This document shows, piece by piece, positions 55,142 through 60,841 of a stretch of DNA of 64,000 nucleotides. A program made the position numbers and the translations under genes. The stretch spans positions 1,054,001 through 1,118,000 of the forward strand of contig NZ_CP147243.1 in assembly GCF_037198285.1 (NCBI RefSeq). The letters are read 5' to 3'. The first letter of the stretch is position 1; each line of letters starts with the position of its first letter. The notes under the pieces are model-generated. The model searched no databases, was not told where the DNA came from, and was given only the letters and a program-made list of their open reading frames with translations. This DNA is from Haladaptatus sp. DJG-WS-42 (GTDB lineage Archaea; Halobacteriota; Halobacteria; Halobacteriales; Halococcaceae).

Positions 55142-55711
55142 TTATTCACCTGCGGCGGCCTGCCGACGCTCGCGTTCCTCTTTCAGCCAGCCGTGTTTGC
55201 CAAGGCCGACCTGTTTGGCCGTGAGGCCAATCTTGCTGTCGCGTGGGTTGCGCTCGTCGATGCTCTTCGTGACGATGCGCGCGCGAACGGAGTCGCCAAC
55301 GCCGAGAGAGCGGTTGGACTCACGCGAGGCGAGCTGTTGGTTCTCGTCGTCGAAGGCGAGGTATTCGTCCGAAATCTGAGAGACGTGGAGCAGGCCGTCC
55401 ACGGGACCAATCCCGATGAACGCCCCGAAGTTGACGACTTCCACGACTTCGCCATCGACGACTTCCTGCATCTGTGGGTCGTACGTGACGGCGTCGAAAT
55501 CCGCCTCGTAGTAGACGCCGGGCTTGTTGGGGATGACCGCCCCGTCGCCGATTTCGTGGACTTTCGTCACGCTGACGACGCTGCCCACGTCTTCGTCCAT
55601 TCGTCCTTCGAGCTTGTCCTGCAGAAGCTGCTTTACCAGTTGTGGAGACACGTCTGCGAGATGCCGCGGTGGAACCTCAACCGTGTCCTTGAGTCTGACC
55701 CGTTTGTACAT
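55142..55711 (-). CDS. rpo7: DNA-directed RNA polymerase subunit Rpo7 (E', Rpb7)
   Basis: 189 residues from the ATG at 55711 (MYKRVRLKDTVEVPP). N-terminal RNP-like domain (1-80) and C-terminal S1 domain (about 82-165, with VVNFGAFIGIGPVDGLLHVSQIS, landmark GAFIGIGPVDGLLH). With Rpo4 it forms the polymerase stalk that binds emerging RNA. Sits in the conserved cluster aIF2 gamma - PIN - rpo7 - spt4. Confidence 0.95.
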   Translation of the reverse strand: MYKRVRLKDTVEVPPRHLADVSPQLVKQLLQDKLEGRMDEDVGSVVSVTKVHEIGDGAVIPNKPGVYYEADFDAVTYDPQMQEVVDGEVVEVVNFGAFIGIGPVDGLLHVSQISDEYLAFDDENQQLASRESNRSLGVGDSVRARIVTKSIDERNPRDSKIGLTAKQVGLGKHGWLKEERERRQAAAGE

Positions 55712-55713
55712 AC

Positions 55714-56097
55714 TTATGGTCGAGTGATTGCCAGTTTGTTCCGGCCCCTTATACCAATTACTGGTACGCAGGCGGCCAGCAACCGCCGTTTCAGGGGTCC
55801 GTCGTTCGTGACGACGTAGTCGCACTCACCGCCGGTGGCGAGTTCGACAATGGCGTCGTCTGCATACGATTCGTCGTGTGAGAGGATACGACAGCGCTCA
55901 CGCGCGAGGTCCGTCCCCACGCTTGCCGCAACCGCCTCGCGGCCCGCGCCCGTCGAGAGTTTCTCCAACTCATTGACGACTGCGGTGGGCGTCACGAGGC
56001 GCACGTCACCGAGCAACCGGTCGAGTTCGTCGAACACGCGCACGTCGAATTCGACCGGCATCATCAGCGCGTTTGCGTCCATGAGCACCGTCGTCAT
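55714..56097 (-). CDS. FCF1-like PIN domain protein
   Basis: 127 residues from the ATG at 56097 (MTTVLMDANALMMPVEF). Acidic residues of the PIN site: D7 (LMDANAL), the Glu in VVNELEKL, the Asp pair in SYADDAIVEL and the Asp in YVVTNDGPLKRRL. Related to eukaryotic Fcf1/Utp24, an rRNA-processing nuclease. Tightly packed between aIF2 gamma (1-base gap) and rpo7 (2-base gap), which supports a role in RNA or ribosome maturation. Confidence 0.9.
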   Translation of the reverse strand: MTTVLMDANALMMPVEFDVRVFDELDRLLGDVRLVTPTAVVNELEKLSTGAGREAVAASVGTDLARERCRILSHDESYADDAIVELATGGECDYVVTNDGPLKRRLLAACVPVIGIRGRNKLAITRP

Positions 56098-56098
56098 C

Positions 56099-57331
56099 CT
56101 ATTCCGTGATTGTCCCGACGCCGATGAGCCGCCAGCGCGCGCCGACGCGGCGGTTGATGGCGACTTTCGCACCGGCGGCCGCACAGACCGGGCGCTTTAA
56201 GCGAACTTCACATTCGCCGCCGCGGGCGCTCGTCACGGCGCCGACCGTCGTGGCCGTGCCGACCGTCATCATGAGCGGTTCGCCCGTCGAGATTTCGTCA
56301 ACTGTGTCCTCGTCGTCGCCGACGACGCGGTCTAAGAGGTCAACCTCCATCTCGAAGGCTTCCCGCGTTGGCGGGAGCGACCCCGGTGGGCCAGCGATCT
56401 GGCCAGCGAGGCCGTCACCTTTCGTGAGGCTTGGGTCGAGTCCCGTGCCGACGCCGAGCAGGCCACCGGGCGTGGCGGTGTCAACCGACTGGCCGCCCGC
56501 CTGAATCGAGCGGACGTTCGTTTCGATTGGCCGCCATTCGGTCTGCCCGCCCTCTTCGACCTCGCGGCCGGGGCGAATTTCGATGTCTTGGCCGTTCTCA
56601 AGCGCGCCCGCGACGAGCGAGCCGCCGATGACGCCGCCGGTGAGGCTGTCCCACGTCGTCCCCGGGCGGTTGATGTCGAAACTGCGCGCGATGTGCAGTC
56701 GGGCATCGTCGCTCGGGTCGCGTTCAGGCGTTGGAATCTCCTCTTCGATGGCCTGAATGAGCAGGTCTAAGTTGACCTCCTGTTGGGCGCTGATGGGGAC
56801 GACCGGCGCGTCTTCTGCAACCGTGCCCTTCGTGAACTCTTTTATCTGCTCGTAGTTCTCGCGGGCCTGGTCTGCAGAGACGAGGTCGACCTTGTTCTGG
56901 GCGATGACAATGTTGTCGATGCCGATGATGTCGAGCGCCATCAGGTGTTCTTCGGTCTGGGCTTGGGGGACGGGCGAGGTGGCGCTCACGAGCAACACCG
57001 CGCCGTCCATGATGGCGGCACCGGAGAGCATCGTCGCCATGAGCGTCTCGTGGCCGGGAGCGTCCACGAACGACACCGTGCGGAGCGGGTCGCTTTCGGT
57101 GCCGTCTTCGCACTCCTCTTTGACGGTGTAACACTCCGGTTCCTCGACGCCGGGGCACTTTCGGAACGTCGCGTCCGCGTACCCAAGTCGGATAGAGATT
57201 CCGCGCTTCATCTCCTCTGAGTGCTGGTCTGTCCACTCCCCTGAGAGCGCTCTGACCAGCGTCGTCTTTCCGTGGTCGACGTGGCCGACGAGTCCGATGT
57301 TCACCTCCGGTTGTTGATGTTTCCCTGTCAT
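56099..57331 (-). CDS. eif2g: Translation initiation factor aIF2 subunit gamma
   Basis: 410 residues. GTPase that carries initiator Met-tRNA to the small subunit. G1 GHVDHGKT at 16-23, G3 DAPGHE near 90, G4 QNKVD near 145. The zinc-knuckle region ([17 protein letters not shown]) keeps three Cys with changed spacing. C-terminal beta barrels II and III follow. First gene of the run extending through kae1-bud32. Confidence 0.96.
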
Positions 57332-57455: not shown

Positions 57456-57471
57456 CTGAAAAAATTTTCAG
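57456..57471. promoter_or_regulatory. Inverted repeat upstream of first winged-helix regulator
   Basis: CTGAAAAAATTTTCAG is a 7-2-7 inverted repeat ending 35 bases before the ATG at 57507. It overlaps the position expected for a TATA element and may be an autoregulatory site. Confidence 0.4.
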
Positions 57472-57506: not shown

Positions 57507-58421
57507 ATGTCATCTCAGCCCACACCAGAGGATGCGCCAGCCGAGCAGGCGAATCCCTCGATAACCGAACCGGCAGAGGTGTTCGCCACCATCTCGAACG
57601 AGACGCGCCTCGCCATCTTGGAAGCCCTCTGGGAGGCGGAGACGCGACACGTGAGTTTTACTGACCTGAATCGGGCGGTTGGGATGAAAGACTCAGCCCA
57701 ATTCAACTACCATCTGCGCCAACTCCTCGGCCGGTTCGTCCACAAGAGCGACGACGGCTACAAGCTCACCTACGCCGGAAAACACGTCCTCCGGACGCTC
57801 ATCTCGGGACGATTCACCGACCAAATCACCATCGACCCCTTCCCGCTGCCGGGGACGTGCGTCGGCTGTGGTGAACAACTCGTCGCGAGCTACGCAGACG
57901 AGGTGCTGGCCGTCCGGTGCTCGGTCTGCGAACGCCTGCACAGCGGCTATCCGTTCCCGCCCGCGGCCGTCCAAGGGCGCACCCACGAGGAGATGCTGGA
58001 CGGGTACAACCGCTGGGTGCGCCACCTCTACAGCCTCGCCGCGGACGGCGTCTGCCCCGAGTGTGGGAGCCAGATGAAGTCGAAGCTCGTAGACGGCCAA
58101 CAGTGTCTCCCCGAACTCCAGATTGCCGTTGGCCACGAGTGCATGCAGTGTCAATCGCATGTGACCGCCGCCATCGGGATGAATCTACTCTACCAGCCTG
58201 ACGTGGTGAGCTTCTACCGCGACCACGACATCGACCTCGGGAACGTCCCCTACTGGGAGTTGCCGTGGTGCGTCGGTGACGAGCACACGACGGTCATCGG
58301 GGACGACCCGTGGCGCGCTCGCGTCGCCATCACCCTCGGTGACGAGGAACTTCGGGTGACCGTCGATGACCAAATCGCCGTCGTCGCCGTCGAGCGGGCG
58401 AAGCAGTACACCCGCAAATAG
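57507..58421 (+). CDS. Winged-helix regulator with zinc ribbons, tandem copy 1
   Basis: 304 residues. Residues about 25-100 are an ArsR-like winged helix (ISNETRLAILEALW; recognition region MKDSAQFNYHLRQL). A zinc ribbon follows (CVGCGEQL ... CSVCERLHSGYPFPP, about 115-150), then a second set of pairs (CPECGSQM and CMQCQSH) and a C-terminal domain with WCVGDEHTT and DDPWRARV. Homologous along its whole length to the protein encoded at 58851. Followed by a small membrane-protein gene with duplicated upstream sites. Likely a transcription factor; ligand and targets unknown. Confidence 0.85.
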   Translation: MSSQPTPEDAPAEQANPSITEPAEVFATISNETRLAILEALWEAETRHVSFTDLNRAVGMKDSAQFNYHLRQLLGRFVHKSDDGYKLTYAGKHVLRTLISGRFTDQITIDPFPLPGTCVGCGEQLVASYADEVLAVRCSVCERLHSGYPFPPAAVQGRTHEEMLDGYNRWVRHLYSLAADGVCPECGSQMKSKLVDGQQCLPELQIAVGHECMQCQSHVTAAIGMNLLYQPDVVSFYRDHDIDLGNVPYWELPWCVGDEHTTVIGDDPWRARVAITLGDEELRVTVDDQIAVVAVERAKQYTRK

Positions 58422-58431
58422 CTCACTTTTT

Positions 58432-58477
58432 CGACAGAAACGGACTTCAGTATCATCGCTTACAGAAATGTAATTCA
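58432..58477 (+). promoter_or_regulatory. Paired 18-bp sites before small membrane protein 1
   Basis: TTACAGAAATGTAATTCA (58460-58477) contains the inverted repeat TTACA-GAAA-TGTAA. A weaker relative, CGACAGAAACGGACTTCA, lies at 58432-58449, 28 bases upstream (start to start). The same pair with the same spacing occurs before the second membrane-protein gene. Likely operators or activator sites for the adjacent regulators. Confidence 0.65.
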
Positions 58478-58518
58478 GATTACTCTTTTTGCCCTTCCTC
58501 TCCTGTGTTCACCTGTCC

Positions 58519-58785
58519 ATGAAGACCAACACTCGCACCCTGTCTGCCACCCAGTACGCCTACCGCAGACCAGCCCAAACCAAAACAGAGCGGGTGGTCG
58601 CGTACCTCCGCGCTGGGGTCATCGTCCTTGCGCTTGCCGTCGTCCTTGCCGTGCTCGCACTCGGTGTGATTTCGCTCCTCCCCGCCCCGGCCGTGTTCGT
58701 GCTCGGAATGGTTGCCCTCGTCAGTGGCCTCATCCTCGTACCGTTCGCCGCAATCAAACTCGTCGTCGGCGCGATTGACGCATAG
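58519..58785 (+). CDS. Small two-helix membrane protein, tandem copy 1
   Basis: 88 residues from the ATG at 58519 (MKTNTRTLSATQYAY). A polar basic N-terminal 30 residues precede two helices (about 31-53 and 58-82) separated by the short turn LLPAPAVFV. The second small protein (59873) has the same layout and the same LLPAPA turn. No catalytic residues. Starts 41 bases after the 18-bp site. Possibly the main target of the regulator encoded upstream. Confidence 0.75.
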   Translation: MKTNTRTLSATQYAYRRPAQTKTERVVAYLRAGVIVLALAVVLAVLALGVISLLPAPAVFVLGMVALVSGLILVPFAAIKLVVGAIDA

Positions 58786-58794
58786 TCACAAACC

Positions 58795-58812
58795 TTACAA
58801 AAAATTCGTTCA
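58795..58812 (+). promoter_or_regulatory. Degenerate 18-bp site before second regulator
   Basis: TTACAAAAAATTCGTTCA resembles TTACAGAAATGTAATTCA at both ends but has lost the inverted-repeat arm. It lies 38 bases before the ATG at 58851. Weak resemblance; included because of its position. Confidence 0.3.
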
Positions 58813-58850
58813 CTGAAGCTTTTTCGCGGTGGCGTACAATTGTTAACACA

Positions 58851-59762
58851 ATGAAGGAAACCTCTATCCAAGAGTGCGAGGAGTGTCTCGCGCCCGCTGA
58901 GGCGTTTTCTACCATCGCAAACGAGACGCGACTGTCCATCTTAGAAGCCCTCTGGACGGCGCCAGAGCGGCCCGTCACGTTCTCTGAACTCAGGCGGTCG
59001 GTGGGCATGCGCGACTCCGCCCAGTTCAACTACCACCTCGGCAAGCTCACCGGCCACTTCATCACAAAGACCGAAGGCGGCTACGACTTCCGCCACGCGG
59101 GCAAGAAGGTCGTGAGAGCCGTCCTCGAAGGCTCGTTCAACGAAGACCCGGAACTCCCCTCCTTCGGGATTTCCGGAGCGTGTACAGATTGCGGCGCGGG
59201 CCTGCAAGCCGCCTACGCTGACGAGCAAATCACCATCGACTGTACTGCCTGCGGGCGGATTCACTCGCGCTATTCATTCCCACCGGGTGGCCTGAACGAC
59301 CGCACCCGCGAGGAGGTCATGGATGCGTTCAACCAGCGCGTGCGCCACCTCCACTGTCTCGCCGCGGACGGCGTCTGCCCCGAGTGCAACGGCAAGATGG
59401 AAACCACGCTCCGGCGGGCAGAAGAGCCCGACGTTGCCGCCACGGTGTGCGTCGAACACCGCTGTGCGCAGTGTGACCACCGCATCCACTCGACGGCAGG
59501 CCTCAAGCTGCTTGACCACTCTGATGTGGTCACGTTCCACCGCACCCACGGCATCGACCTCTGTGCGACGCCGTACTGGGAGTTCGCGTGGTGCGTCTCT
59601 GACGAGCACACGACCATCCTATCTTCCGACCCGTGGTCGATTCGCGTGACGATTCCGCTCGACGACGAGGAACTGCGCGTCACGATGGACGGCGACCTGA
59701 CCGTGACCGACGTCGAAACGTTCCCGACGGGCACGCCCGCAGACTCGCGGACGACCGCCTAA
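58851..59762 (+). CDS. Winged-helix regulator with zinc ribbons, tandem copy 2
   Basis: 303 residues, a paralogue of 57507-58421. Same order of parts: winged helix (IANETRLSILEALW, MRDSAQFNYHLGKL), zinc ribbon (CTDCGAGL and CTACGRIHSRYSFPP), second pairs (CPECNGKM and CAQCDHR), then WCVSDEHTT and SDPWSIRV near the end. The DNA-reading helix is nearly the same in both, so the two may share sites, while the wing and the middle domain differ more. Acts with the small membrane protein downstream, by context. Confidence 0.85.
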   Translation: MKETSIQECEECLAPAEAFSTIANETRLSILEALWTAPERPVTFSELRRSVGMRDSAQFNYHLGKLTGHFITKTEGGYDFRHAGKKVVRAVLEGSFNEDPELPSFGISGACTDCGAGLQAAYADEQITIDCTACGRIHSRYSFPPGGLNDRTREEVMDAFNQRVRHLHCLAADGVCPECNGKMETTLRRAEEPDVAATVCVEHRCAQCDHRIHSTAGLKLLDHSDVVTFHRTHGIDLCATPYWEFAWCVSDEHTTILSSDPWSIRVTIPLDDEELRVTMDGDLTVTDVETFPTGTPADSRTTA

Positions 59763-59775
59763 ACGGACAGAATTT

Positions 59776-59821
59776 TTACAGAAGTGCGATTCAGTACGGC
59801 CGCTTACAGAAATGTAATTCA
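59776..59821 (+). promoter_or_regulatory. Paired 18-bp sites before small membrane protein 2
   Basis: TTACAGAAATGTAATTCA (59804-59821) is identical to the site at 58460-58477, and both are preceded by CGC. A relative, TTACAGAAGTGCGATTCA, lies at 59776-59793, again 28 bases upstream. CATATATG, a likely TATA element, follows at 59827-59834. Confidence 0.65.
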
Positions 59822-59872
59822 AGAATCATATATGGTCGCACAACGCCTTCTCTCAGATGAGGAAAACAACCC

Positions 59873-60118
59873 ATGGCCGCATCCAACCCACAGCTGTCAT
59901 CTGCGACCCGACTGGCACCGAGAACGCCCGCTGACGCCGCCGCAGACGTGCTGGTCACGCTGCTCCTGGTGACCCTCGCGTTCGCGGCCCTCGTCGCGGT
60001 CGCCGTGGTCGCCACGGCCCTCCTGCCTGCACCGGCACTGTTCGTGTTACTGTGGGTTGGCGCCGTTGCTGGCCTCTTTGCACTCCCGCTGGCCGTGGGT
60101 TCATTCCTCGCTCGATAA
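59873..60118 (+). CDS. Small two-helix membrane protein, tandem copy 2
   Basis: 81 residues. Polar N terminus (MAASNPQLSSATRLAPRTPA), helix 1 about 26-49, the turn LLPAPALFVL, helix 2 about 53-77. Same architecture as the 88-residue protein at 58519. Start ATG lies 51 bases after the 18-bp site. Function unknown. Confidence 0.75.
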   Translation: MAASNPQLSSATRLAPRTPADAAADVLVTLLLVTLAFAALVAVAVVATALLPAPALFVLLWVGAVAGLFALPLAVGSFLAR

Positions 60119-60157
60119 GGGAAAACAGTTCTGTGACTCGGCCTGCAATGCACTGAC

Positions 60158-60841
60158 ATGGCATTCGACGCAGGCCGAGTCACGACCGTTACCTTCGATT
60201 CGTACAGCACCATCGTTGACGTAGACGCCGCAGAGCAGGCGCTCGCAGACCGCGTTTCGACTCCCGAACCCGTCTCCAAACTCTGGCGGGCGCGCTCGAT
60301 TGAGTACACCATGGTGGCGAACTTCGTCGACGCCTACCAGCCCTTCTACGAGATGAACCGCGACGCCCTCCAGTACGCACTGGACGTCCACGGCGTCGAT
60401 ATTTCGACCGACGAGCGCGACGAAATCCTCGCCGTCTACCACGAACTCGACGTGTTCGACGACGTGCGCGACGGGATCCAGCGGCTCAAAAATGGCGGCT
60501 ACGACTGCTATGTCGTCTCCAACGGGAACCCCGAGATGCTCGCCTCGATGGTCTCCCACGCCGACATCGGCGACCTGCTTACTGACACGATTTCCGCCCA
60601 CGAAGTGGAGACGTTCAAGCCGGATGCCGAGATTTATCGGCACGCCGCTGGGCGAACCGGGACACCAATCAAAGAGATTGCGCACGTTTCGGCTGGCTGG
60701 TTCGACGTGATGGGCGCACAACACGCCGGAATGCAGGGCGTCTGGGTCGACCGGAAGGGCACGCCCTACGAGACCTTCGGCGGCGACCCCGACTTGACGA
60801 TTGAGACCTTCTACGAATTGGCCGAGGAACTGGGCGTCTAG
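60158..60841 (+). CDS. HAD-superfamily hydrolase, haloacid dehalogenase type II-like
   Basis: 227 residues. Motif I is VTFDSYSTIVDVD near residue 12, where the first Asp is the nucleophile; the second position is Ser rather than the Asp found in phosphatases, which points to the dehalogenase branch. SNGNPEML is motif II, the Lys in EVETFKPDAEIY motif III, and VSAGWFDVMGAQHAGM motif IV. Cytosolic; it probably acts on a small organic halide or is a general HAD enzyme. Confidence 0.88.
   Translation: MAFDAGRVTTVTFDSYSTIVDVDAAEQALADRVSTPEPVSKLWRARSIEYTMVANFVDAYQPFYEMNRDALQYALDVHGVDISTDERDEILAVYHELDVFDDVRDGIQRLKNGGYDCYVVSNGNPEMLASMVSHADIGDLLTDTISAHEVETFKPDAEIYRHAAGRTGTPIKEIAHVSAGWFDVMGAQHAGMQGVWVDRKGTPYETFGGDPDLTIETFYELAEELGV

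Follow-up and report, generated by a model that had tools for sequence, protein, structure and literature searches.

A DUF7347-DUF7351 regulator, a small two-helix membrane protein and a candidate double operator associated across Halobacteriales

To our knowledge, most one-component regulators and small membrane proteins of haloarchaea have no known target or function. Among described archaeal systems, the closest to the locus considered here is that of TFB-RF1 (PF1088) of the Thermococcales, which forms a conserved pair with PF1089, a membrane protein (4 TMS) whose function is not known. TFB-RF1 is autoregulated, with a palindrome TCTGAA-N1-TTCAGA just upstream of a weak BRE, and its second target, an ABC transporter of the drug-exporter type, is activated (PMC5937170). 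EarA and Ptr2 are methanogen activators that bind upstream of the BRE, with the archaellum and rubredoxin as targets (PMC5512572). CsmR of Haloferax volcanii is a 13-kDa Lrp/AsnC-like protein that governs a motility and shape regulon through the motif TATCA-N4-TGATA (PMC13286277). The haloarchaeal BRE consensus is CGAAA (PMC4983044). The putative switch presented here, comprising a regulator (R) and a small membrane protein (S), is undescribed, is spread across an order of salt-loving archaea, and occurs as a pair twice in a row in one genome. A preliminary description of this DNA had known of no system of this form; in agreement with it, literature searches on the motif and theme recovered no description of such a system, and no paper naming DUF7347 or DUF7351.

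The stretch analyzed (the window) comprises 64 kb of Haladaptatus sp. DJG-WS-42, and coordinates below are window positions. As previously described, four ORFs on the + strand alternate between regulators and small membrane proteins in the order R1 (57507..58421, 304 aa), S1 (58519..58785, 88 aa from the ATG, near-leaderless), R2 (58851..59762, 303 aa) and S2 (59873..60118, 81 aa). The gene order of a divergent aIF2-gamma gene, R1, S1, R2, S2 and a HAD hydrolase gene is kept throughout the genus (3/3 genomes). The two regulators had been considered homologous along their length, and indeed align gap-free over 275 residues with 50% identity (E = 3e-106). The inference of a tandem duplication holds at the level of structure. 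In the tree, however, R1 forms a long branch confined to this genus, whereas R2 groups with the single-copy R of relatives as their ortholog; the core R clade comprises 66 sequences with support of 99/94. A search of genome contigs with R1 matched, among named relatives, only Halobacterium sp. KA-4, where no S is adjacent.

Both R1 and R2 contain a winged helix of the DUF7347 family (PF24038) followed by a DUF7351 domain (PF24042). These score 110 and 213 bits in R1 (E = 6e-32 and 3e-63) and 118 and 236 bits in R2, in each case above the Pfam gathering cut-offs of 27.6 and 31.2 bits. The two sets of cysteine pairs pointed out earlier are a conserved feature of the family: across 65 relatives, C111, C114, C131, C134, C176, C179, C205 and C208 (R2 numbering) show either no variation or a conservation of 90% or more, and constitute two predicted zinc-ribbon quartets within DUF7351, which may have a structural role. 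The metal- or redox-sensitivity offered as an example in the preliminary description would derive from these cysteines and is conjectural, both regulators scoring far under the cut-off of the ArsR/SmtB metalloregulator model (see below). The AlphaFold2 model of R2 is confident (pLDDT 92.9), and comparison with the PDB indicates that its N-terminal wHTH resembles the folds of ArsR/SmtB-type repressors (6j05, 6j0e) and PagR (2zkz), with weak sequence similarity. Unlike ArsR/SmtB proteins, R has a DUF7351 module of 180 residues that contains the eight cysteines. No PDB entry matched the R2 model at E <= 0.001, and this module has no significant fold match.

The two small proteins align over 75 residues with 36% identity (E = 2e-5 in a single comparison) and have in common the LLPAPA turn noted in the preliminary description. 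AlphaFold2 predicts two helices in S1, spanning residues 22-51 and 56-87, with modest confidence (pTM 0.44). The dN/dS ratios across three species, namely 0.16-0.31 for S1 and 0.22-0.29 for S2, are low, which indicates that both encode proteins under purifying selection. Neither S1 nor S2 has a Pfam or NCBIfam match above cut-off, and none of ten S relatives matches a Pfam family. As a sequence search with S1 yields the genus and weak TM-similarity matches, many of them inside larger proteins, the conservation of S was traced via its promoter.

The strongest part of the locus, which was overlooked in the preliminary description, is a direct repeat of 49 nt in front of both S1 and S2. Its exact common core, CTTACAGAAATGTAATTCA, has two exact copies and no others in the 2.78-Mb genome. 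The S1 promoter harbors two inverted-repeat boxes without mismatches, box 1 (CAGAAACGGACTTCAG, 58435..58450, +) and box 2 (CAGAAATGTAATTCAG, 58463..58478, +), followed by a BRE/TATA-like region (ATTACTCTTTTT, 58479..58490, +) devoid of a CGAA BRE. The S2 promoter has its own box 1 (CAGAAGTGCGATTCAG, 59779..59794, +) and box 2 (CAGAAATGTAATTCAA, 59807..59822, +), and a TATA-like element (CATATATGG, 59827..59835, +) lying about 10 nt further downstream than in S1, a shift also found in the genomes G034 and G111. The regulators are associated with single boxes. A candidate operator upstream of R1 (CTGAAAAAATTTTCAG, 57456..57471, +) is the sole exact CTGAA-N6-TTCAG in the whole genome, and in G111 its half-sites are kept with a changed spacer (CTGAAGATTCCTTCAG). 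Upstream of R2 a degenerate single box (CAAAAAATTCGTTCAC, 58798..58813, +) lies at -53 from the ATG and is the best + strand matrix match in the window behind the two S promoters.

Alignment of S upstream regions across genera exposed the general form of this double element, namely two copies of C[AT]GAA-N6-TTCAG placed 28 bp apart, directly before the BRE/TATA region of a gene that would be near-leaderless. In 81 of 88 sites the boxes keep this 28-bp separation, with box 1 at position -25 and box 2 at position +3 relative to the search motif. Box 2 is followed by GATTA, a TATA-like ACTTAT and then an ATG usually 32-46 nt past the motif, a short distance that suggests leaderless or nearly leaderless S transcripts. 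The pattern of box 2 with its flank was recovered from 113 of 293 Halobacteriales genomes, representing 45 of 87 genera, as against 2 hits with the reversed pattern. In 93 double-box loci, which include a few overlapping records of one place, the next ORF encodes two predicted TM helices in 80 cases, as opposed to 2.2% for positions drawn at random from that DNA, and at least one in 87. A few further double-box matches with 2-3 mismatches (e.g. G053 C1:90572) are not beside R. Several genomes have more than one double-box locus, as in G281 (L126, L127, L128) and G208 (L105, L106), with differing S proteins or DUF7351 paralogs, suggesting that the module expanded repeatedly in genomes with two or three such loci.

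The S proteins downstream of these promoters are strongly divergent. Thirty long-hairpin versions, mostly linked to R, can be aligned and display one near-invariant proline, while others have a shorter hairpin and a basic tail; a CVPxxxxC tail motif is found in 14 of 80. One subset ending in a basic tail with CVPxTxxCV (L142, L143, L146-L148, L122, L123, L125) comes mostly from loci where R is unlinked, and this tail could possibly form a beta-hairpin with two cysteines. All S types are accordingly grouped here by their promoter and hairpin layout, as their divergence is too great for sequence comparison to demonstrate common ancestry.

Several lines of evidence connect R to the box. The linkage was scored in 60 loci, each of 8 kb, of which 20 were drawn largely from instances where R had not been seen in the vicinity. 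A DUF7351 regulator occurs within 4 kb of S in 33 and directly precedes it on the same strand in 20. Of the genomes with an unlinked S, 26 were checked, and every one encodes an R ortholog at another place (best E 6e-86 to 7e-146), compared to 17 of 41 motif-negative genomes from different genera (E <= 1e-65; Fisher p = 2e-7), and several of these 17 possess a diverged double box beside R. Further, the promoters of 41 of 95 R genes have a box (<=3 mismatches) at -51 to -54, with about 1 expected; no box is seen in R's own promoter at certain R-linked loci (e.g. in G099 and G022). The gene pair, its candidate operator and the R-S association are thus established computationally, and the idea of a working pair put forward earlier gains support from the linkage, the co-occurrence in trans and the common candidate operator, and extends well past the genus. 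A search for the contrary, i.e. that S might not be conserved beside R homologs in other genomes, turned up the linked loci enumerated above.

Since R is non-adjacent to S in about half of the loci, and the motif also has distant DUF7351 paralogs as neighbors, the assignment of a protein to each site is provisional. One could envisage that an unlinked global factor reads the double box and that R is a frequent neighbor which is itself another target of that factor, in keeping with the boxes in R promoters and with the absence of linkage in about half of the loci. However, R has a DNA-binding domain, its ortholog is present in every tested motif-positive genome with unlinked S (26/26), and separate DUF7351 lineages adjoin the box, one of them next to a distinctive half-site variant (CAGAA/TTCTG), which together make such a factor quite improbable. 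It is much more plausible that R itself binds the boxes, and comparative sequence evidence indicates that this is very probably so. Two disrupted loci count against control of S by R. In G034, R2 is a pseudogene that has acquired a single nonsense codon and lost 71 codons in frame between two RIHS-encoding repeats (L039:2915-3601), but S2 and its boxes are intact. In G077 (L055, G077:C135), an insertion sequence with a transposase ORF splits R after approximately residue 74, while the downstream S is kept. These cases imply that S can outlast the local R, at least temporarily. The putative control of S by R is nevertheless well supported by inference from the above associations.

These observations suggest a mechanism in which R would be a one-component transcription factor binding the inverted repeat C[AT]GAA-N6-TTCAG. 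A pair of these sites, 28 bp apart and immediately next to the BRE/TATA region, would drive the expression of S, a helical-hairpin membrane protein, and one weaker site at about -52 would place R under its own control. R would probably activate S by recruiting TFB to a putatively weak BRE, as Pyrococcus TFB-RF1 does, and S would then act as a membrane effector, perhaps in a response to envelope- or membrane-active stress. For this explanation overall, we estimate a probability of roughly 0.6 from the comparative evidence.

The BRE position in S promoters reads CGAA in none of 88 sites and GATTA in 72, in contrast to the boxed R promoters, where CGAA is present in 13 of 43. The placement of a box directly before a BRE position at which CGAA never occurs speaks for activation via TFB recruitment, and this contrast together with the double site favors such activation at S and milder autoregulation at R. 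Alternatively, R could repress both S and itself, with R bound at box 2 blocking TFB/TBP until released by a ligand, metal or oxidant in the manner of ArsR-like derepression. Negative autoregulation is common among one-component regulators, the wHTH of R resembles those of the ArsR and PagR repressors, and box 2 ends at the BRE, close enough to allow repression. Against this, the lack of a CGAA BRE in S promoters is as expected under activator dependence, and the ArsR/SmtB metalloregulator model of NCBIfam (NF033788) scores R1 and R2 at 24.9 and 20.6 bits, far under its cut-off of 55. Moreover, both boxes are upstream of the TATA element and TSS, the usual position for archaeal activators (PMC5937170). 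On balance, repression appears rather unlikely, and R probably acts as an activator at S.

The resemblance to TFB-RF1 includes the pairing of a regulator with a membrane protein, autoregulation, which is probable here, the half-sites CTGAA/TTCAG, and a palindromic site at a fixed distance upstream of the BRE, which is occupied here by box 2, with box 1 28 bp further upstream in 81 of 88 sites. The two differ in that the spacer is N6 here and N1 there, two sites are present here as opposed to one per promoter, and each gene has its own promoter here, whereas in TFB-RF1 the membrane protein precedes the regulator in one operon. The exact TFB-RF1 site TCTGAA-N1-TTCAGA is absent here, only the half-site core being common to both. 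Hence R is not classed as TFB-RF1, and is inferred by analogy to work like it, the comparison being based on site and architecture. The sites are also reminiscent of those of EarA and Ptr2 in lying immediately upstream of the BRE/TATA region in multiple copies, although the sites and targets are different, and no small membrane protein partner of these activators is described in PMC5512572. CsmR is likewise a haloarchaeal winged-helix regulator with a promoter-proximal palindrome beside the TATA, but its different family and motif rule it out as a relative of R. The half-site and position in common with Thermococcales raise the question of whether the control of small membrane proteins through TFB recruitment dates far back in the archaea.

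With regard to S, a role as an effector or a feedback element is more likely than one as a sensor, given that S is the conserved target of the promoter. S might give feedback on R by tethering or inhibiting it at the membrane, such that the pair would combine a sensor and a regulator instead of a regulator and an effector. The single dominant target, the retention of S wherever the promoter is present, and the basic, probably cytoplasmic tails of many S proteins are compatible with this; yet S diverges strongly while R is conserved, unlike what is typical of a tight interface, and paralogous R proteins adjoin an MFS transporter instead of S, making this an unlikely option. The small hydrophobic hairpin, fast divergence and two-site promoter might also evoke a membrane-active toxin- or holin-like protein, kept under tight control because of harm to its own cell. 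This is very unlikely, as there is usually one conserved S copy per genome across the order, with no family match and no recurrent mobile element among the common flanking genes.

The preferred reading of S as an effector draws on the paralogs of R. In the Haladaptatus genome itself (G000:C1:1508627-1510800, L012:2607-4800), a gene for a paralogous DUF7351 regulator precedes a variant double box, with a gene for a 412-aa MFS transporter lying about 37 nt beyond it. The variant consists of CAGAA-N6-TTCTG twice, or close variants thereof, in a geometry similar to the S double box, and the same arrangement is found in G034, G111 and G053 (two loci). Thus, to judge from these arrangements, it is apparently the whole gene family, beyond the core R clade, that is tied to the box. 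The membrane location of S and these MFS neighbors of the paralogs are the grounds for proposing that S functions in envelope or membrane stress, and a stress- or efflux-related role is accordingly advanced tentatively. By extension, DUF7351 regulators could mediate an order-wide response to envelope or xenobiotic stress, in which they would read tandem operators particular to each family and thereby switch on either S or an MFS exporter, S representing a new class of small membrane stress effectors; this broader scenario is speculative and rather doubtful at present. Even so, comparative sequence alone provides a regulator, a probable operator, a core target and probable autoregulation for an order-wide family, rendering its function testable.

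Finally, R adjoins the aIF2-gamma operon, which also contains genes for an RNA polymerase subunit and a PIN-domain protein, in several families of the order (window 55142-57331; loci L127, L130, L132, L133, L135, L139, L150, L154, L155, L158, L160), and this neighborhood appears to be where the R-S pair originally resided. The aIF2-gamma locus was also considered as a common non-R neighbor of S and set aside, as it recurs mostly where R is linked. In the window, a perfect 14-nt inverted repeat (GTGACTCGGCCTGC / GCAGGCCGAGTCAC, 60133-60183) extends across the start of the gene for the HAD hydrolase, which follows S2.
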